From a virus: DNA of 24,666 nucleotides. A model generated the notes under the pieces. That model was not told the origin of the DNA and searched no databases. It saw only the letters and a list, made by a program, of their open reading frames with translations. Below, piece after piece: positions 880-19,935 of this stretch (position 1 is the stretch's first letter; each line of letters opens with the position of its first letter). The stretch is taken from positions 1-24,666 of IMG/VR virus record IMGVR_UViG_3300014501_000424; one strand, 5' to 3'. Made by a program: the position numbers and the translations under genes.

Positions 880-964
880 AGGGAGCGGTAAGCCCGTCTG
901 TTCCACTAGCGAAGCGAAGCACGACGAGCCACCGCCCCCGCTCCCATCGTACCCGCCAAGCAAC

Positions 965-1616: not shown

Positions 1617-1646
1617 AAAAAACACCCCTGAAACTCTCCAGGGGTG
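1617..1646 (-). terminator. Rho-independent terminator after the csrA-led gene group
   Basis: On the minus strand CACCCCTG (1646-1639) pairs perfectly with CAGGGGTG (1630-1623) around an eight-base loop and is followed by six T (1622-1617). It sits 30 bases past the stop of the gene ending at 1677, closing the transcript that starts with csrA. Confidence 0.85.
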
Positions 1647-1676
1647 CCTACAACGCATCGGAGCGAAGGGGTGTCT

Positions 1677-2090
1677 CTATCCCTTGAACAGTTTGGCAAT
1701 CGCTCCTGCCTCGTCCAGTGCTTCCTTGAACTCATCCACCGAACCGCACTCCCCGATCGCGTCGGCCAGTGCCTTCGCGTCGTCGTAGTTGCCACCGAAC
1801 TTGTCTTGGACGAGGGCAATCGCCGCTTTGATCTTGGTAGGCGTCAATCCGTTGGATTCCACCTTGCCTTTCTTCGGCGGTTTCTCGCCCGCGACTACGT
1901 AACGAAGTTCAATCTTCGCCCTGTTGACGGACGGGCCGGCGGGGGCCGTTGTCCATGTCCAATCAGGATCGGCTTTAATGTCTGCGTACTTTGCTTCCCT
2001 GTTCTTTCTAAGGACTTTCAGGATAACGGCGTATTTTGCTGCGTTGTCGTCGCCCGCCACTGGGGGAACTCCCTTTGGTTTTTTTACCAC
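1677..2090 (-). CDS. Helical protein, possible DNA-binding paralogue A (137 aa)
   Basis: The chosen start is GTG at 2090, after AAAGGG, giving a 137-residue protein beginning MVKKPKG. The longer frame to 2204 adds an unconserved stretch. The N-terminal half (about residues 18-55) holds AVILKVLRKNREAKYADIKA, which looks like the first helices of a helix-turn-helix or winged-helix unit. A lysine-rich linker follows, then a C-terminal helical region (about 85-135) ending in VDEFKEALDEAGAIAKLF. The same layout appears in the gene just upstream (2132-2569), from which it is 41 bases away. Planctomycete genomes carry many small proteins of this general design, where the N-terminal part is thought to recognise DNA. 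A regulatory role is inferred from that and from its place in the left arm. No exact family is claimed. Confidence 0.6.
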   Translation of the reverse strand: MVKKPKGVPPVAGDDNAAKYAVILKVLRKNREAKYADIKADPDWTWTTAPAGPSVNRAKIELRYVVAGEKPPKKGKVESNGLTPTKIKAAIALVQDKFGGNYDDAKALADAIGECGSVDEFKEALDEAGAIAKLFKG

Positions 2091-2131: not shown

Positions 2132-2569
2132 TTAGGACAAGAGTTTTTCGAGCGATTCGCCATACTGTTGAACTAAGGCAAGTGCCTTTTTGTAGCCGCC
2201 GCAAGAGACGATAAACGACATTACAAGTGCCGCTTGGCTTGCGACACCCTTTGCCCCCTCGTCAGCGTCGACCGCTTCGAGGATCAACTCGGACAATCCA
2301 TCGTCGGCGGGGGTGTGCGAATCAGGAACACCCGTAAGACCGTGCTTGTTCGTATTTGGCAATTTGCCCCTTCCATTCTCGACGGGAGTGATTCCCAATT
2401 CTTTGCGGACACGACCGAGCAATACGCCACCGACCTTTTCCCGCTTCCCAAACACCTTGATCCACTGGGGCGATTCTTGTACGTCCGATGATCTTGCGTC
2501 TGGAACCGCTTTAAGCACTTGACGAATGATTTCCCGTTTCTGTTCGATTTTTTCGCGGAGCATCATCAT
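2132..2569 (-). CDS. Helical protein, possible DNA-binding paralogue B (145 aa)
   Basis: Three ATG codons in a row (2569, 2566, 2563) follow AAAAGGG; any could be used, and the first is taken here. The longer frame to 2623 lacks support. Residues ~8-30 (EKIEQKREIIRQVLKAVPDA) and the following DVQESPQW parallel ILKVLRKNREAKYADIKADPDW of the neighbouring 1677-2090 gene. The C-terminal VSCGGYKKALALVQQYGESL parallels that protein's end. The middle has a polar linker (HTPADDG). Two paralogues in tandem suggest duplication followed by divergence. Its ribosome site lies inside a repeated leader box that also precedes csrA, so the two may be controlled together at translation. A DNA-binding regulator is the favoured but unproven reading. 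Confidence 0.6.
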   Translation of the reverse strand: MMMLREKIEQKREIIRQVLKAVPDARSSDVQESPQWIKVFGKREKVGGVLLGRVRKELGITPVENGRGKLPNTNKHGLTGVPDSHTPADDGLSELILEAVDADEGAKGVASQAALVMSFIVSCGGYKKALALVQQYGESLEKLLS

Positions 2570-2573
2570 AAAA

Positions 2574-2590
2574 CCCTTTTCGCTAGTGGA
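2574..2590 (-). promoter_or_regulatory. Leader box TCCACTAGCGAAAAGGG over a ribosome site
   Basis: Read on the minus strand, this box ends in the AAAAGGG that serves as ribosome site for the gene starting at 2569. A near-identical box (TCCACTAGCGAAAGGG) covers the csrA ribosome site at 3215-3230. A partial copy, TTCCACTAGCGAAG, lies in plus orientation at 901-914 near the junction. Conservation extends well beyond the ribosome-binding purines, which suggests a protein or RNA target. Confidence 0.5.
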
Positions 2591-2633
2591 GAGAACAAAG
2601 AACAAAGCACAATCTACCGACACCCCTACCCGA

Positions 2634-2846
2634 TTACAAGCGACCGCTAATCAAGAGGGAAACAAGCAACCATAGGAACAGGCAAAGTACAGCGATTATC
2701 ACCTTCATTGCTAGAAGGTCTTTCCGATGCTCACGCCGTTCCTTTCGGAGTTTCCCGATACGACGAGCCATTTGAGCAAGCATCGACCATACCGCCTTTT
2801 GCCGTTCGGCCGTCATGCGTGCCGCAAGAGCGAAGACCTTTTTCAT
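2634..2846 (-). CDS. Small basic tail-anchored membrane protein (70 aa)
   Basis: The ATG at 2846 overlaps the csrA stop in an ATGA junction, so translation is probably coupled to csrA. GAAGG just upstream also serves as ribosome site. The 70-residue product is strongly basic and helical up to about residue 47 (KLRKERREHRKDLLAMK) and ends with one hydrophobic segment (about 48-66, VIIAVLCLFLWLLVSLLI). This predicts a tail-anchored protein with its basic part in the cytoplasm, where it could touch nucleic acid or acidic proteins. No family was recognised. The tight coupling with csrA is the only functional hint. Confidence 0.6.
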   Translation of the reverse strand: MKKVFALAARMTAERQKAVWSMLAQMARRIGKLRKERREHRKDLLAMKVIIAVLCLFLWLLVSLLISGRL

Positions 2847-3205
2847 GGCAACGCCTTCACGTCTGCCGAGACCGATAGATGGCAAACCACAGGCGGATGA
2901 ATTGGTGGGCTGGAATTGACGAACACAGGCGGATGATGAGGCAAGCATTTCTTGCGATTGGGAAGAAACCAACGCCAGATAATCCGCATCCCTTTCCCAT
3001 CGTCCGCTATCTCTTCCACGTCCGATTCCCGCTCTTCATCGGTCTCCGCTCTTCCATCGTCCTTAATCTCCGCACGTAAGACCTTGACGTGAAACGGGCA
3101 GTTTATCCCTAACGTCGCCCGATTGCCCGACACCTTCAACACCTTCACGGTTACCGTCTGCCCGATCGTCAATGATTCGCCTACCCTTCGACTGAGAACA
3201 AGCAT
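2843..3205 (-). CDS. csrA: Phage-borne CsrA-family RNA-binding regulator with long C-terminal tail
   Basis: Residues 1-50 are a clear CsrA domain: MLVLSRRVGESLTIG opens it, GNRATLGI forms the central strand and VKVLRAEI closes it. The residues that bind GGA-containing RNA hairpins in known CsrA proteins (Leu4, Val40, Arg44, Glu46, Ile47) are all present. CsrA dimers bind GGA motifs in mRNA leaders and usually block ribosome access or change mRNA stability. The start ATG at 3205 follows AGGGAG with seven-base spacing. The protein is 120 residues, about twice the usual 60-70. Residues ~51-80 are acidic and polar and the last ~35 are rich in proline, histidine and hydrophobics (HHPPV and HPPVV), encoded partly by a 13-base direct repeat. 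It leads a minus-strand group that ends at the terminator at 1617. Its own leader carries GGGAG in a repeated box, so autoregulation is plausible. Confidence 0.9.
   Translation of the reverse strand: MLVLSRRVGESLTIGQTVTVKVLKVSGNRATLGINCPFHVKVLRAEIKDDGRAETDEERESDVEEIADDGKGMRIIWRWFLPNRKKCLPHHPPVFVNSSPPIHPPVVCHLSVSADVKALP
2888..2936. repeat. 13-base direct repeat CACAGGCGGATGA in the csrA tail
   Basis: Exact copies lie at 2888-2900 and 2924-2936, 36 bases apart and therefore in the same frame. On the minus strand they encode the repeated HPPV in the C-terminal tail of the CsrA protein. This suggests that the tail grew partly by a short duplication. Confidence 0.8.
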
Positions 3206-3214
3206 TTCTAAACT

Positions 3215-3230
3215 CCCTTTCGCTAGTGGA
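3215..3230 (-). promoter_or_regulatory. Leader box TCCACTAGCGAAAGGG over the csrA ribosome site
   Basis: On the minus strand the box runs into AGGGAG, the csrA ribosome site, seven bases from the ATG. It contains GGGAG, which includes the GGA core that CsrA proteins bind, so the product could repress its own translation. The same box, with one A inserted, lies before the gene starting at 2569. Confidence 0.5.
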
Positions 3231-3249
3231 ATGAACCTTCCAGCGATTA

Positions 3250-3406: not shown

Positions 3407-3875
3407 TAGTCGGCTCTAAGTGGGGCAGAAACTCTGCCGGCTTTCGGCCCTTCCCGCCTACCTTCGGATGCAGTGGAGTTGTGCTGTTCTTTGTGCAAGG
3501 GAACGTGAGCAAACCCCTATTTCCATAGTGTCACACGCATTGCGTCTATCTCTCCGTAGTCCTGATAGGACTATCAAGCCACTTTCCCCGCCCTATTCCT
3601 GCCGTCCCTTGCTCCTACCCGCACCCCCCGCTCCGTCGCATATACGCCCCGTAGGACGCATCCAAGCGGTAGAAGGCACGAATACTGCCCCTCGTCGCCC
3701 CCGTATTGTCTGCGATTATCCTGATTATCCAGGGGCGAAGGCAGAAGGGGTGCGAGTGCGTAGCGGGCAAAGGGCAAAAAAAGTCCGACCCCCACCCCCC
3801 CTACCGCGACTGTCCCCTTTCTCTAATTCCAAGAAAATGATTTCGTAATTGGTAATGGTCTTACTCTTATATGTT

Positions 3876-4382
3876 ATGGAAACTTACCAAGACAGATACT
3901 CAATAGGCGACAAGTTCAATCGGCTTACTCTTCAAGAGATATTACCCAATAACAGATGCGAAAGTGTTTGCGAGTGCGGCACCATCAAACACTTTCGCAC
4001 TTCTAGCGTCATACATGGAGAAACTAAATCTTGTGGTTGCCTCCGGAATGAACTGGTAGCAGAAATCAATCGAAAAGGTATCAGGGGAAAAGGCAATAGA
4101 AAGCATGGCAAGAAAGGTACTCGCATATACATCACTTGGAAGGCAATGAAACAGCGGTGCTATAACGAACGGTGCAAGTCATATCCACATTACGGAGGAA
4201 GAGGTATCAAGGTATGCGACCGCTGGCAGGACTTTGCGAACTTCTACGCCGATATGGGCGACAAGCCGGAAGGTCTATCTATTGACCGAATAAATAATGA
4301 CGGGCACTACTCGCCAGATAACTGCCGATGGGCGACACGTAAGGAGCAAAATCGCAATCAACAAAGGCACCGCCAACATTGA
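3876..4382 (+). CDS. HNH-like phage protein with N-terminal zinc-ribbon-like domain
   Basis: From the ATG at 3876 the product is 168 residues. Residues 8-56 resemble the short domain that begins GDKFNRLTL and holds paired cysteines (CECG at 32-35, SCGC at 52-55), probably binding zinc. Residues ~85-162 carry the phage-common block with YGGRGIKVCDRW, SIDRINNDG and NCRWA, usually annotated as an HNH-type or homing endonuclease-like domain. Such proteins are mobile in phages and may cut or bind DNA. No good ribosome site is seen; TTG at 3849 and ATG at 3855 are alternative starts. It follows the long non-coding stretch and precedes the methyltransferase. A relative on the other strand lies at 15008-15604. 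Activity as a nuclease is inferred, not shown. Confidence 0.75.
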   Translation: METYQDRYSIGDKFNRLTLQEILPNNRCESVCECGTIKHFRTSSVIHGETKSCGCLRNELVAEINRKGIRGKGNRKHGKKGTRIYITWKAMKQRCYNERCKSYPHYGGRGIKVCDRWQDFANFYADMGDKPEGLSIDRINNDGHYSPDNCRWATRKEQNRNQQRHRQH

Positions 4383-6648: not shown

Positions 6649-8271
6649 TTATAGACCGCCTGATTGAATCAGGAACGGAGTGCCAGGATTCACAATCATA
6701 AACCCGCTTGAAATGCTCGTCCCTATTTGTTGCCGCACGTCACCGCTCGCAAATCCGCCAGACATAAAGCCGCCGGACGATAGACATAGCTGCCCGCTTC
6801 TGCCAACCCATACTGGTTGTCCGTATTGTGCGAAGTTCGTTAGACCCGACGCATTAGTTCCGCCAATCCCCTGCGAAACAAGATTAACACCTAGTGTAAC
6901 GCCCGAACTGAATTGTCCGGCCACAACACCAACTGCCGGCATTCGACCGCTCACACTTGCCATAGCAATCCAAAGATTCCCGCTTGGCGAAATGGCAACA
7001 GCGTAGGCTCCGCTGATTAGCTCTTGTGTGATTGGATTAACACCTGCGTTCGTCGGGAATGGTGCAACATTCTCCGCATAAGTAGCAGTCAGTCCGTTGA
7101 TCGCACCGCTTGCTAACTGAAACAGACCAACGGCACCACTGGCGATATTCCCAGATGTTACAGCGTTATTACCTATGTCACCACTTGTAATACTACCAGA
7201 AGTTATACTAGCTCCACCTCCGCCACTCCAGCCAGCGAACCCACTAGCCATATGGAAGAGACCAACGGCACCACTGGCGATATTCCCAGATGTTACAGCG
7301 TTATTACCAACGTCCCCACTAGTGATGATTCCGCTAGACAAGGTGAAGCTACCGCCCCCGCCTACTCCCGACGCTAATGCCGACTGCGGGATACTGCCCG
7401 ATGCGTAGTTCGGTGTATTCACGGAAGCCGCTCCAAGGTCTCCCGACGTTACAATTCCACTCGCCAATGAGAAGCTAACGGGTAGTACGCCACTCGCAAT
7501 CGAGCCACTGACTACCGAAGCATTCGCAAGCATTCCGCTACCTACAATTCCACTCGACAATGAGAAGGCCGGTGGGATAACGCCGGAAGCAATCTGCCCC
7601 GATGTAATCTGACCAACCGAGAATGCACTACCTAAGTGATACTGCCCGATAGACCCCGAACTTATGTTCCCAGAATTGACGGCGTTATTGCCAATGTCCC
7701 CTGAAACTACGATTCCCGAAGTAAGGGTAAAGCTACTGCCGCCCACTCCCGACGCTAAGGCGGTTTGCGGGATACTGCCCGAACTATAATTCGGTGTATT
7801 CACGGAAGCCGCCCCCAGCGATCCCGATGAAATGATCCCACTAGACAAGGTGAAACTAGAAGGCAGCACACCGGAAGCGATCGACGAGGCAACTACCGAA
7901 CCGGCCCCAAGCATACCAGAACTAATTTGACCGGACGTTATCCCCGTTAAGTATGTTGCAAATACAGCGGCAGGTGTATCAAGGAAGACATTGAGATTTG
8001 CCCCACTGAAATTGACGTTGGTATTTTGGTATGAAGATTGGTAGATGGTATTGCGTTGTATCTGCCCTCCACTCCATACACCTAATCCTGTTTCCCAATT
8101 TGTATTGTCGGTACAGACATAGGGTACAGTCGCCGATACCATCCCGCTTGATATACAACCGCTCGCAAACGATTGGTATCCAGTCGTCGGCCCGTTCAAT
8201 ACTAGATTTCCGCTTGTCCCTGGATTACCGCTACAAGTTTCCCAAACGCGATCCGCATACGAAATTGCCAT
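6649..8271 (-). CDS. Repetitive tail-fibre-like protein, on the opposite strand
   Basis: The ATG at 8271 gives MAISYADRV, and residues 1-~95 match a common fibre N-terminus: ADRVxET, a GYQSF strand, TDNTNWETGLGVW, and FLDTPAAVFATY. From ~100 to ~400 the chain is built of SGxIxSGxIG-type units (TSGDIGNNAVTSGNIASG and relatives), a pattern expected of a trimeric beta-structured shaft. Two ~128-residue super-repeats are visible, each with GAASVNTPNY followed by SGSIPQ. The C-terminal ~140 residues are non-repetitive and resemble a fibre tip domain. The product has 540 residues; GTG at 8295 is an alternative start. It is antisense to its neighbours, convergent with the gene ending at 6647 and divergent from the one starting at 8307, so it needs its own promoter. 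A host-receptor fibre is the likely role. Confidence 0.8.
   Translation of the reverse strand: MAISYADRVWETCSGNPGTSGNLVLNGPTTGYQSFASGCISSGMVSATVPYVCTDNTNWETGLGVWSGGQIQRNTIYQSSYQNTNVNFSGANLNVFLDTPAAVFATYLTGITSGQISSGMLGAGSVVASSIASGVLPSSFTLSSGIISSGSLGAASVNTPNYSSGSIPQTALASGVGGSSFTLTSGIVVSGDIGNNAVNSGNISSGSIGQYHLGSAFSVGQITSGQIASGVIPPAFSLSSGIVGSGMLANASVVSGSIASGVLPVSFSLASGIVTSGDLGAASVNTPNYASGSIPQSALASGVGGGGSFTLSSGIITSGDVGNNAVTSGNIASGAVGLFHMASGFAGWSGGGGASITSGSITSGDIGNNAVTSGNIASGAVGLFQLASGAINGLTATYAENVAPFPTNAGVNPITQELISGAYAVAISPSGNLWIAMASVSGRMPAVGVVAGQFSSGVTLGVNLVSQGIGGTNASGLTNFAQYGQPVWVGRSGQLCLSSGGFMSGGFASGDVRQQIGTSISSGFMIVNPGTPFLIQSGGL
7124..7829. repeat. Direct repeats within the fibre gene
   Basis: A 50-base sequence is exactly repeated at 7124-7173 and 7259-7308, 135 bases apart, a whole number of codons. 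A longer diverged pair, about 7339-7444 and 7724-7829, lies ~385 bases apart and carries the same GATACTGCCCGA and TTCGGTGTATTCACGGAAGC blocks. Both reflect duplication of shaft units and could recombine to lengthen or shorten the fibre. Confidence 0.85.
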
Positions 8272-12839: not shown

Positions 12840-15011
12840 ATGACATTAGTAGGCGAGTACGGAAAGGGGTGGGGCGGTGATAAAAAACAACTACTCCAAC
12901 AATTTGAGCTAACAGTATTTGCGGCGGCGAAGAAACACGCGGCACGTATTGCGGGGGTTCGCCTTCGACTTTATACGCATACGCTTAGCGACAATACCCG
13001 ACGGCTTGGAAAGATTGAAACGAAGGGATTGAACTTCTGGGAACGGGAAACCCTAGTCAAACGATGCGAGACAAAATATCTAAACACTGGACAAGACCTA
13101 GCAGAAGTGATGAAGCACCCTGCGATAGATTTGCTCCACAAGCCGAACCCTGTTCAGCACGGCCGCGAGCTATTCACGTATATTGAACTAGAACGGGCAA
13201 TCAGTGGTAGCGTCTATATCCATCACATTGACTATCAAGGCGTACCCGCGATCCTATGGCTTCTGCCTTCCTATCTCGTCAAGGTGAATCAGGGGGATGA
13301 TGGGTTTCCCGATGAATACCGATTCGGGAACGCAAGCTTCAAGCCAAAAGAAATGCTTGTCGATACGACCGAGAACTTATACGCACCGTACAGCGGTCTT
13401 CCAGGGCAATCCCCTGTTAAAGCCGTAATGAAGGTACTCGGCTTGCAGTATGACGTAATCGGCAAACTTAGTTCGCTCCTACGCTCCCCGCGTGCTTCGA
13501 TGATCCTTCGCCCCAAGTCCGAGTTTAATTCGCTTTCGGACGAAACAAGGGAACTATGGCACCGACAAGCCGCACAATTTAAGTCGTCGATGGAAAACGA
13601 CATAATGATTTTGGATGAAGACGCGGAAGCGACTATCCTTAATGCCATACCCGCCGATTTGAGTGCGATAGAGATAATGAAACTGGTCGAACGCGAAGTA
13701 GCGAAGGCGTTCGGAATGAACCTTACAATCTTGGTAGGCGGTGGGGAACAAGCGAATCGGGCACACTACCAAGCGGCCGTTTCGGAATGGCTACAAGGGG
13801 GCATTCACTCCCGCTTAATGGAACTAGAAGAATGGTTAAACTACAAATATCTTCCCCTGTTCCCTGATAGTGAGGATTTGTTTTTCGCCTTTGATGATCC
13901 CGAACCGAAGAGCGAAATAGATCAAATGAATCTGTATGTTACCGGAGCAGGCGGGCCAGTCATCACCGTCGACGAATCACGCAGCGCCCTCGGGTTTCCG
14001 CCCCTTCCAGATTCGCAGGGGACGCGATTACGGGAACTCGTCACCGAACAACCAGGCGACGAGGGGAGCGGGCCGACACCGGAGGGCGACGGAAGCGACC
14101 GTGAAGACGAGCCACTGTTACCGCTCGACGATGCCCGCTCAATCGTCGCCAGCGTCGTCAAGGGGGAGCTACCCCGCGACAGTGGGATTGAATTGCTTCG
14201 CACCTACGGAATGCCCCTGGAACGAGCTACGAAGATTATGGGCAGTGCTGGAATGCGGAAGACCCCCGCACGGCGTACCAACGTCCCACCAAACGGAAGC
14301 CAACTAATCCCGATCCTCCGCAAGCACTTTCAGGAATGGCGTAAAGCGGCACTTGCGGCAGTCCATAAATCGGCGACAGGAATTGAGCGGAAGGACATTG
14401 ACGGGGGAATCGTCGTCAAGGGTTTGCCCGATGCCTTCGTTCCCGTTGGCGATTGGGATGCATCCTTAGCTGCCGATGCCTTCCCAGTTATTTCAATGAT
14501 CTTCAAGGATGGCGGGAACAAACTACTCGGTAGGGTAGGTGCAAGCCCGAAAGTGTATGACGTGTTTAATCCCAAGGCGGCGGAGTACGCCCGTCAGGCG
14601 ACGTTGGATTTCGCAAAATCCACAATGGATTCGACAACGAAGGACTTGAACCAAGCACTCGCCGAAACTAGGGAAGCCATTGCGAGCGGCTTGGAAGTAG
14701 GCAGCACCGTCAATGAATTGAGCGACCGAGTAGGCGAGATTTTCGACGGCTTGGAAGATAGCCGATGCAAGATGATCGCTCAAACCGAATCGGCAAGAGC
14801 ATACAATTTCGGCCTAAGAGACAGTGCGAAAGAATCGGGTGTAGTGAAGGAATTACGTTGGCTTACAACGTCCGATCCATGTCCGGTTTGCTTGGAATTG
14901 GAGGGCACACTAATTCCGCTCGATTCGGATGATCTGCCCCCCCAGCACTGCAATTGTTTCTGCTGCCTTGAAGAAATCATTGACGAGAGCGTACTAGATG
15001 ATGCTGGCTAA
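12840..15011 (+). CDS. Portal protein fused to MuF-like head morphogenesis domain
   Basis: ATG 12840 follows AGGGGGAGC; the product has 723 residues. Residues 1-~400 have portal features: a helical N-terminus, LLHKPNPVQHGRELF, the PVKAVMKVLGL helix, IDQMNLYVTGAGG and DESRSALGFPPL. Portals form the dodecameric ring at the tail vertex through which DNA passes. A low-complexity acidic linker (~410-450) leads to a helical segment. Residues ~560-712 match MuF/SPP1 gp7-like proteins: MIAQTESARAYNFG, LRWLTTSDPCPVC and the terminal PPQHCNCFC. CPVC (681-684) and HCNC (703-706) could bind a metal. MuF proteins are minor head proteins that act near the portal and may leave with the DNA. They are usually separate genes, so this fusion is notable. 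The stop overlaps the antisense HNH gene by four bases. Confidence 0.85.
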   Translation: MTLVGEYGKGWGGDKKQLLQQFELTVFAAAKKHAARIAGVRLRLYTHTLSDNTRRLGKIETKGLNFWERETLVKRCETKYLNTGQDLAEVMKHPAIDLLHKPNPVQHGRELFTYIELERAISGSVYIHHIDYQGVPAILWLLPSYLVKVNQGDDGFPDEYRFGNASFKPKEMLVDTTENLYAPYSGLPGQSPVKAVMKVLGLQYDVIGKLSSLLRSPRASMILRPKSEFNSLSDETRELWHRQAAQFKSSMENDIMILDEDAEATILNAIPADLSAIEIMKLVEREVAKAFGMNLTILVGGGEQANRAHYQAAVSEWLQGGIHSRLMELEEWLNYKYLPLFPDSEDLFFAFDDPEPKSEIDQMNLYVTGAGGPVITVDESRSALGFPPLPDSQGTRLRELVTEQPGDEGSGPTPEGDGSDREDEPLLPLDDARSIVASVVKGELPRDSGIELLRTYGMPLERATKIMGSAGMRKTPARRTNVPPNGSQLIPILRKHFQEWRKAALAAVHKSATGIERKDIDGGIVVKGLPDAFVPVGDWDASLAADAFPVISMIFKDGGNKLLGRVGASPKVYDVFNPKAAEYARQATLDFAKSTMDSTTKDLNQALAETREAIASGLEVGSTVNELSDRVGEIFDGLEDSRCKMIAQTESARAYNFGLRDSAKESGVVKELRWLTTSDPCPVCLELEGTLIPLDSDDLPPQHCNCFCCLEEIIDESVLDDAG

Positions 15012-15604
15012 CCTTGTTTCTTCGGCTTCGTAGTCAATGCCTCTTCAACTGACCATCCATCTAAAAGACGGTCCTTGATTATTGTCCGCTTCACCCCTAG
15101 ATGCCTTGCCCATTCCGCTATCGTCCTTCGCTCACCCGCAAAGTCCAGATAATGAAATCGCTTTGCTTCCGTCGTCAATGCCTTTTCAAGTGGCCAGCCC
15201 CGATTTAATCTATCCCTAAGCGTATGCTTATGCACGCCGATTTCCCTTGCCCATTGCGTTACGGTCTGCCGCCGTCCCTTGTATTCAATGAAGCGATTAC
15301 GGGAAGTATTGTTGTGTTGCTCCGTCATCGTCGCAAGCCGTACATTTGCAGGCGTATAGTTCCCGTCGTTGTCCTTTCGCTCAATCGTCAATCCGTCCGG
15401 TATCTCGCCAAGGTCTTCTAGGAAGTTTGCGAAGTCCTGCCACCGCTCGCAAACCTTAATGCCCCTGCCACCATATCGATCGTAGTGGTCGTGCTTCTCA
15501 TTCTGGCAACGTGCCTTCATGCCTTGCCATATCTGATAAGTCCTACTCGCCCGCTCCCCTATTGCTCGGCTTGCGTGTCCATGTTTAACGTGTTTGCTAG
15601 TCAT
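15008..15604 (-). CDS. HNH-type homing endonuclease-like protein with two C-terminal helix-turn-helix units
   Basis: ATG 15604 follows AGGAC at short spacing; 198 residues. Residues ~22-100 carry the phage HNH-like block (YQIWQGMKARC, YGGRGIKVCERWQDFANF, NDGNYTP). It resembles the 3876-4382 protein but lacks its zinc-ribbon-like domain. Two positions differ from that relative: SIDR becomes TIER, and NCRWA becomes NVRLA. Residues ~107-145 and ~154-192 are two copies of a helix-turn-helix unit (TVTQWAREIGVHKHTLRDRL and TIAEWARHLGVKRTIIKDRL), each ending GW-x-ExALTT, as in DNA-binding tails of homing endonucleases. It lies antisense in the middle of the head genes and overlaps the portal stop by four bases, as expected of a selfish insertion. 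It may be active or partly decayed. Confidence 0.8.
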   Translation of the reverse strand: MTSKHVKHGHASRAIGERASRTYQIWQGMKARCQNEKHDHYDRYGGRGIKVCERWQDFANFLEDLGEIPDGLTIERKDNDGNYTPANVRLATMTEQHNNTSRNRFIEYKGRRQTVTQWAREIGVHKHTLRDRLNRGWPLEKALTTEAKRFHYLDFAGERRTIAEWARHLGVKRTIIKDRLLDGWSVEEALTTKPKKQG

Positions 15605-18947: not shown

Positions 18948-18977
18948 AAGGCACGCTAGAAATGGCGTGCCTTTTTT
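18948..18977 (+). terminator. Strong terminator after the capsid gene
   Basis: AAGGCACGC (18948-18956) and GCGTGCCTT (18965-18973) form a perfect stem around an eight-base loop, followed by T through 18977. It lies 20 bases past the capsid stop and touches the stop of the convergent glycosyltransferase gene, keeping the two transcripts apart. Confidence 0.9.
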
Positions 18978-19935
18978 ATTTCTGATCCAACCATTTGAGA
19001 ACGTAGTTGAAGGGATCACGCGAATTAAATGCCGAGTACGAAGCGTAGTTGTATAGCCCCTCGAATGCGTCCCATACTTCGGAGCACCCCTTCAACTCGG
19101 CGTATTCGTCGGGCAGGGGATCGGGGAGCAAATGCAACACGTTCCCCGCCGGATCAAGATCGTAGCAATACAGGGGGAAATGCTTCGTCCAAACAATGAA
19201 GACGGGACTTGTGCAACAACCAGCAACGTGCCCGATCCCTGAATCAATCGCTAGGGTGCCCGTAGCTCGTTCGATGAGGCAATACAACTCTCCCGCTTCT
19301 GCGTAGTCCCGATGCTCCCAGATCGCATTGGGAGAGACGGCAAGCCCTGCCTGGACGATCGCGTTCCCATTCGGCGACCAGTCGAGCAAGACCGGCACAA
19401 GGTTCCGCTTCGATAGCTCGCGGCAAAAGTCCGCGACGTCGTAGGGGTTCAAGTCCTTCTCTGGCCCACCGCTTGCCCCCTCGTAATGGATCAGGAACGC
19501 CCCTTCATTCGGGGGAAGCGAAGCGTACCAATCATCTACCCGCTTCGCTTGTTCTTCCTGATAGGTGCAATCGTAGGTACAGAGATCGGCGATGGTCGCC
19601 AATCCGAACTCCGCGAGAAGGCATTGCGGCACCTTCGTACAAACACCGTCCCAATCGTATTCAGGGTGTCCAAACTGGATATACAGGCAGCGGTCATATT
19701 TGAGATTGTCGATCCACCGCATTGAATAATCCGTCTTCCTTGATGAAAACCATTCTTTGACGAGATCGGCGTATAGGTCGCCTGTACCAAGGGAAGACAT
19801 AACGGAGAACTCGCAATCAGGATAGTAGTAGCGAAGGTGCGAAAGGACGCAACGGAATTGAACGTGGTCGCCTAGACCGTGGTTGAAGCGTAGTAGGACA
19901 TTCTTTTTGCCGGCGAGATTGTTTGCGGTAATCAT
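18976..19935 (-). CDS. GT9-like glycosyltransferase (heptosyltransferase family), antisense in the head genes
   Basis: The chosen start, ATG 19935, gives 319 residues beginning MITANNL. NVLLRFNHGLGDHVQFRCVL (12-31) has the GxGD loop that opens GT9 enzymes. The C-terminal half has IDSGIGHVAGCCTSPVFIVW, matching the family DSGxxHLAxxxGxPVxxLFG sugar-nucleotide site. This family moves heptose or other sugars from a nucleotide donor to lipopolysaccharide core or related acceptors in the cytoplasm. Here it is embedded between the capsid and connector genes on the opposite strand, so it is an acquired cargo gene. It may modify host surface sugar to block other phages, or decorate virion proteins. 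No ribosome site is obvious. Its start codon lies 10 bases from the next plus-strand start. Confidence 0.8.
   Translation of the reverse strand: MITANNLAGKKNVLLRFNHGLGDHVQFRCVLSHLRYYYPDCEFSVMSSLGTGDLYADLVKEWFSSRKTDYSMRWIDNLKYDRCLYIQFGHPEYDWDGVCTKVPQCLLAEFGLATIADLCTYDCTYQEEQAKRVDDWYASLPPNEGAFLIHYEGASGGPEKDLNPYDVADFCRELSKRNLVPVLLDWSPNGNAIVQAGLAVSPNAIWEHRDYAEAGELYCLIERATGTLAIDSGIGHVAGCCTSPVFIVWTKHFPLYCYDLDPAGNVLHLLPDPLPDEYAELKGCSEVWDAFEGLYNYASYSAFNSRDPFNYVLKWLDQK

Follow-up and report, generated by a model that had tools for sequence, protein, structure and literature searches.

An orphan tail on a phage-borne CsrA, probably acquired by extension of the reading frame into non-coding DNA

A gene of the CsrA family with an orphan C-terminal tail lies at positions 2843-3205, on the minus strand, of a 24,666-base metagenomic virus record of IMG/VR, the whole of which is the window analyzed here. 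The open reading frame begins with ATG, encodes 120 amino acids and closes with a TGA stop. Judged from its sequence, this gene is a genuine CsrA-family member in which the RNA-binding residues L4 and R44 are kept, and it is probably an ordinary phage-borne csrA whose frame now continues through formerly non-coding DNA to the point where the next gene begins.

The RNA-binding core

The CsrA family of Pfam (PF02599) matches residues 1-49 (E 5.8e-17, 61.8 bits, curated cut-off 27), PHROG 9500, described as a "CsrA-like regulator", spans residues 1-59, and the alignment to solved CsrA structures ends at residue 57-58. The likeness to Escherichia coli CsrA (45 bits over residues 1-57) includes the predicted order of elements in the core fold and residues L4, R6, R7, V40, V42, R44, E46 and I47, but H43 is replaced by L and E45 by A, an acidic stretch follows past residue 48, and the tail of 47-50 residues has no counterpart. 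L4, R6, R44 and E46 are conserved across the 19-22 CsrA sequences aligned, and L4 and R44 are critical for RNA binding (PMC7652899). The original prediction that a phage encodes a CsrA whose RNA-binding surface is intact is supported, with L4, R6, R7, R44 and E46 kept and positions 43 and 45 changed. The scores fall under the NCBIfam equivalog cut-offs for TIGR00202 and NF002469 (62.9 of 70.1 and 63.6 of 73 bits), so that the protein is a member of the family and not a callable equivalog of chromosomal CsrA.

In the AlphaFold monomer, residues 1-50 have a pLDDT of 73-79, and five strands and a helix at residues 45-63 are predicted in the order β1-5 and α1; a Foldseek search with this low-confidence full-length model returned no CsrA match. 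Residues 50-73 are still coding-like, with the maximum of the cumulative coding score at residue 73, and the Pfam match, the model and this score together delimit a core plus acidic helix at residues 1-73 (2987-3205, minus strand). A 22-nt repeat of 77% identity (2992-3013 and 3049-3070, 57 bp apart and in frame) is found within residues 46-72, its copies encoding EIKDDGRA and EIADDGKG.

By family resemblance, residues 1-49 and the helix that follows would very likely form the usual dimer and bind GGA-containing mRNA leaders, and the protein may repress or stabilize phage messages, host messages or both during infection or lysogeny. The leader of csrA itself has four GGA triplets in about 100 nt, a count that 14% of random stretches reach and that is therefore uninformative. 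GGA enrichment in the leaders of phage genes was likewise rejected as evidence for targets, as ribosome sites alone would suffice for the difference (1.6 vs 1.2 per 66 nt).

Phage and host setting

The gene sits among tailed-phage genes. Pfam and PHROG matches in the 24.7-kb record include HNH endonucleases, a DNA methylase, a terminase-like ATPase, a portal-MuF fusion, a maturation protease, a major head protein and connector or neck proteins. The DUF1553 family is characteristic of Planctomycetota and their relatives, and the C-terminal part of DUF1553/PSD1 is weakly matched, under the curated Pfam cut-off, by an open reading frame at the left end (141-737). This frame therefore probably belongs to flanking host DNA and the record to a provirus, which probably comes from a planctomycete-like bacterium. 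Pattern scans of viral contigs with the terminase, the major head protein, the whole CsrA and the genes at 1677-2204 and 2132-2572 found no relative. No sister phage emerged among the csrA loci that were fetched, which have only weak HNH, methylase or MuF matches to the other genes of the record.

Several other features of the record were noted. Two HNH-endonuclease-like paralogues on opposite strands, at 3849-4382 (plus) and 15008-15604 (minus), are 53% identical over 96 residues. A 540-residue protein (6649-8271, minus strand) with many degenerate repeats of the SGxITSGDIGNNAVTSGNIASG type and no Pfam match is probably a tail fibre or adhesin. A cargo-like frame of 313 residues (18976-19917, minus strand), also without a Pfam match, separates the major head protein from a head-tail gene and is encoded on the strand opposite to theirs.

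Survey of viral CsrA proteins

Two pattern scans of viral contigs yielded 66 viral csrA genes, 60 of them distinct, all from phages other than that of the window; two steering alignments with invented rows set only the degeneracy of the search patterns, and the loci and comparisons reported are of real sequences. The 60 distinct proteins are 53-126 residues long with a median of 66, and five have at least 80 residues. Against this median the 120 residues of the window protein are, as first estimated, about twice the normal length. Its core is up to 60% identical to those of the viral CsrAs found, and the five nearest (L007, L008, L009, L030 and L031, 55-60% identity) end at residue 61-69. A single viral CsrA, L053 (IMGVR_UViG_3300005525_000955, 126 residues), also exceeds 100 residues, but its C-terminal part is unrelated to the window tail; the other 59 have 53-93. 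The outcome named beforehand as speaking against the tail, namely relatives that end near residue 60, was largely borne out: 59 of 60 end before residue 100 and the closest ones at 61-69. For phage records (14 matches) and plasmids (44 matches), the similarity stops at residue 47-49 among the matches listed.

The survey also turned up other departures from the short core. The C-terminal part of L053 (6001-6381) may be an added domain; a 78-residue viral CsrA (L062, 1075-1311) has a tail holding CDSCHGAGCEGC, a zinc-knuckle-like CxxC-CxxC arrangement; and insertions within the core comprise about 30 residues in L071 and L072 (from 6001) and, following strand 2, about 12 residues in L024-L029 (from 6001). 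One candidate, L006, was discarded as a phage CsrA, its csrA standing beside an aspartokinase gene in a record that is listed as phage but is from Acinetobacter. Most viral CsrAs are thus short cores, and their ends vary widely, which gives single long tails their context.

The C-terminal tail

Residues 74-120 and the stop (2843-2986, minus strand) form a tail rich in proline, histidine and cysteine, set apart by the lack of relatives, by composition and by pLDDT. The cumulative coding score declines past residue 73, and residues 71-120 score under all 402 in-gene windows of 50 codons from the same phage; among stop-free off-frame windows they fall at the 27th percentile. The deficit lies in the amino-acid composition, which is heavy in Arg, Cys, His and Pro, and not in the choice of synonymous codons, a component that taken alone stands at an unremarkable 22nd percentile. 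At 50 residues composition is weak evidence, and scores as low are reached by 4 of 48 C-terminal pieces, albeit shorter ones, from the other viral CsrAs. None of the six frames over the tail DNA has a coding signal, the region gives no signal of RNA structure (z -0.49), and a 50-codon open run has a chance probability of 10-14%. In the AlphaFold model, pLDDT is 49-60 from residue 71 onward, with no secondary structure past residue 63. Relatives of the tail were sought by pattern scan of viral and genome contigs, in 50,697 phage records (at E up to 1) and in the 66 viral csrA loci (best E 0.03); none was found in the first two and nothing of note in the third. The only match in the single genome-contig scan proved spurious, a large unrelated frame sharing AETDEERE. 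On these grounds the tail reads like translated non-coding DNA, and a recent accident appears likelier than a conserved working part.

Part of the tail had been attributed to a 13-base duplication. An exact direct repeat, CACAGGCGGATGA, is indeed present at 2888-2900 and 2924-2936, each copy encoding HPPV and both in frame because they are spaced 36 bp apart, but it makes up no more than 26 of the tail's 150 bases, and the local duplication would merely have doubled HPPV inside the tail.

The point at which the coding signal stops, near residue 73, adjoins GGGAAAGGG, and in a metagenomic record such a place invites the explanation that a sequencing or assembly indel near codon 70-73 shifted the frame off a true stop nearby. 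This we consider very improbable: neither of the other two frames on the strand has a stop soon past residue 73 or is coding-like, so that an indel does not bring back a CsrA of the usual short length. The idea of a frameshift into the downstream frame, giving a fusion of CsrA to a membrane protein, was rejected, as that frame is not coding-like over the tail.

The proposal that the tail tethers CsrA or recruits a partner found no support, given its lack of relatives and its non-coding-like composition. A rival reading gives the tail a function as a short, proline-rich peptide that binds a metal or a partner through C87, H90, H91, H103, C108 and H109, in the manner of FliW-binding C-termini. 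It draws on the density of these residues: six Cys or His in 23 residues are absent from the phage's own genes and present in 0.2% of six-frame windows, the feature having been picked post hoc. The CxxC-CxxC tail of L062 and the extended C-termini that serve as FliW-binding surfaces in other bacteria (PMC7366521, PMC7652899) favor it as well. The tail is, however, neither conserved nor predicted to be structured, its composition is that of non-coding DNA, and it has no similarity to solved CsrAs past residue 58, all of which makes such a function doubtful. The comparison with the FliW-binding CsrAs of Bacillus, Campylobacter and others is itself partial: the window protein, like them, exceeds the gammaproteobacterial length, but its tail is much longer, rich in proline and histidine and predicted to be disordered. 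The window proteins scanned included none that would point to a fliW-like gene, and no alignment to any family or solved CsrA that would liken the extension to those of other long CsrAs runs past residue 59.

The downstream gene and the ATGA junction

The gene that follows csrA (2634-2846, minus strand) encodes a basic protein of 70 residues whose one strongly hydrophobic stretch is C-terminal, and it starts at an ATGA that overlaps the csrA stop. The earlier description of csrA as fused through this ATGA to a tail-anchored basic protein is correct as to the overlap and the hydrophobic stretch, but the two genes share the ATGA in different frames and are unfused. Two further leftward frames follow: a gene at 2132-2569 (minus strand), whose codon-position GC resembles that of other phage genes, and a gene at 1677-2090 (minus strand) with a GTG start at 2090 and GGAAAGGG just before it. 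Searches of Pfam, PHROG and NCBIfam matched neither the 70-residue protein nor the product of 2132-2569, family searches with 1677-2090 gave no match, and a pattern scan of viral contigs found no relative of the 70-residue protein. An intrinsic terminator with a 13-bp stem and a T run (1620-1649, minus strand) closes the cluster, and the close packing of the four frames, csrA first, suggests a single transcription unit. A 28-nt motif, CCACTAGCGAAA, stands directly upstream of csrA (3209-3236, minus strand), where it contains CCACTAGCGAAAGGG, and again, with 82% identity over 28 nt, upstream of the third gene (2569-2596, minus strand); a 13-nt part recurs at 901-913 (plus strand) near the left end. 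It may act as a common regulatory leader or operator.

The junction bears on how the extension came to be. An ATGA overlap is common at the ends of viral csrA genes (16 of 66), and this counts against an extended frame, since the stop at 2843-2845 is then ordinary in kind and perhaps settled, not accidental. The frequency of such ends also suggests that the extension may serve translational coupling, and the main rival to frame extension holds that it has been kept to carry ribosomes to the ATGA, tying translation of the 70-residue membrane-type protein to that of csrA. The peptide sequence would then be free to drift, hence its odd composition. The overlap itself, the open frame across the tail DNA and the strong terminator at the end of the four genes are in keeping with such coupling. 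The 70-residue frame, however, has a weak coding score and no relatives, and the GAAGG-like ribosome site that precedes it may make coupling unneeded; we therefore hold this explanation to be unlikely, if deserving of attention.

Extension of the frame of an ordinary phage csrA remains the reading that we prefer. An ancestral stop would have been lost near residue 73, or a small indel would have occurred there, giving a recent extension of 47-50 residues that continues as far as the TGA contained in the ATGA with which the next gene starts. The resulting peptide is probably disordered and without selection for a specific function. Loss of the stop is inferred and not observed, since no close relative of the phage was found.

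Conclusions

The presence of CsrA in phages is already published: a 2020 survey found csrA in 30 of 2,517 phage genomes and recognized variable C-terminal ends as a trait of the family (PMC7366521), the CsrA of Burkholderia phage JC1 (gp47) has been reported as possibly virion-associated (PMC9144972), and in 2025 knockdown of the phage csrA homologue PTXU04_00028 was described to give smaller plaques (PMC11879866). The window gene resembles these phage-encoded CsrAs in being carried by a tailed phage or provirus, differs in the length of its product, and adds a further member with an orphan tail. A new CsrA from a little-sampled phage group thereby joins a known but poorly understood class. 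There is a small chance that the tail is a de novo, lineage-specific functional extension, such as a Cys/His metal- or partner-binding peptide that redirects the phage CsrA, perhaps together with the membrane protein encoded next to it; if the tail were functional, loss of a stop codon in a phage regulator would have given rise to a new peptide.
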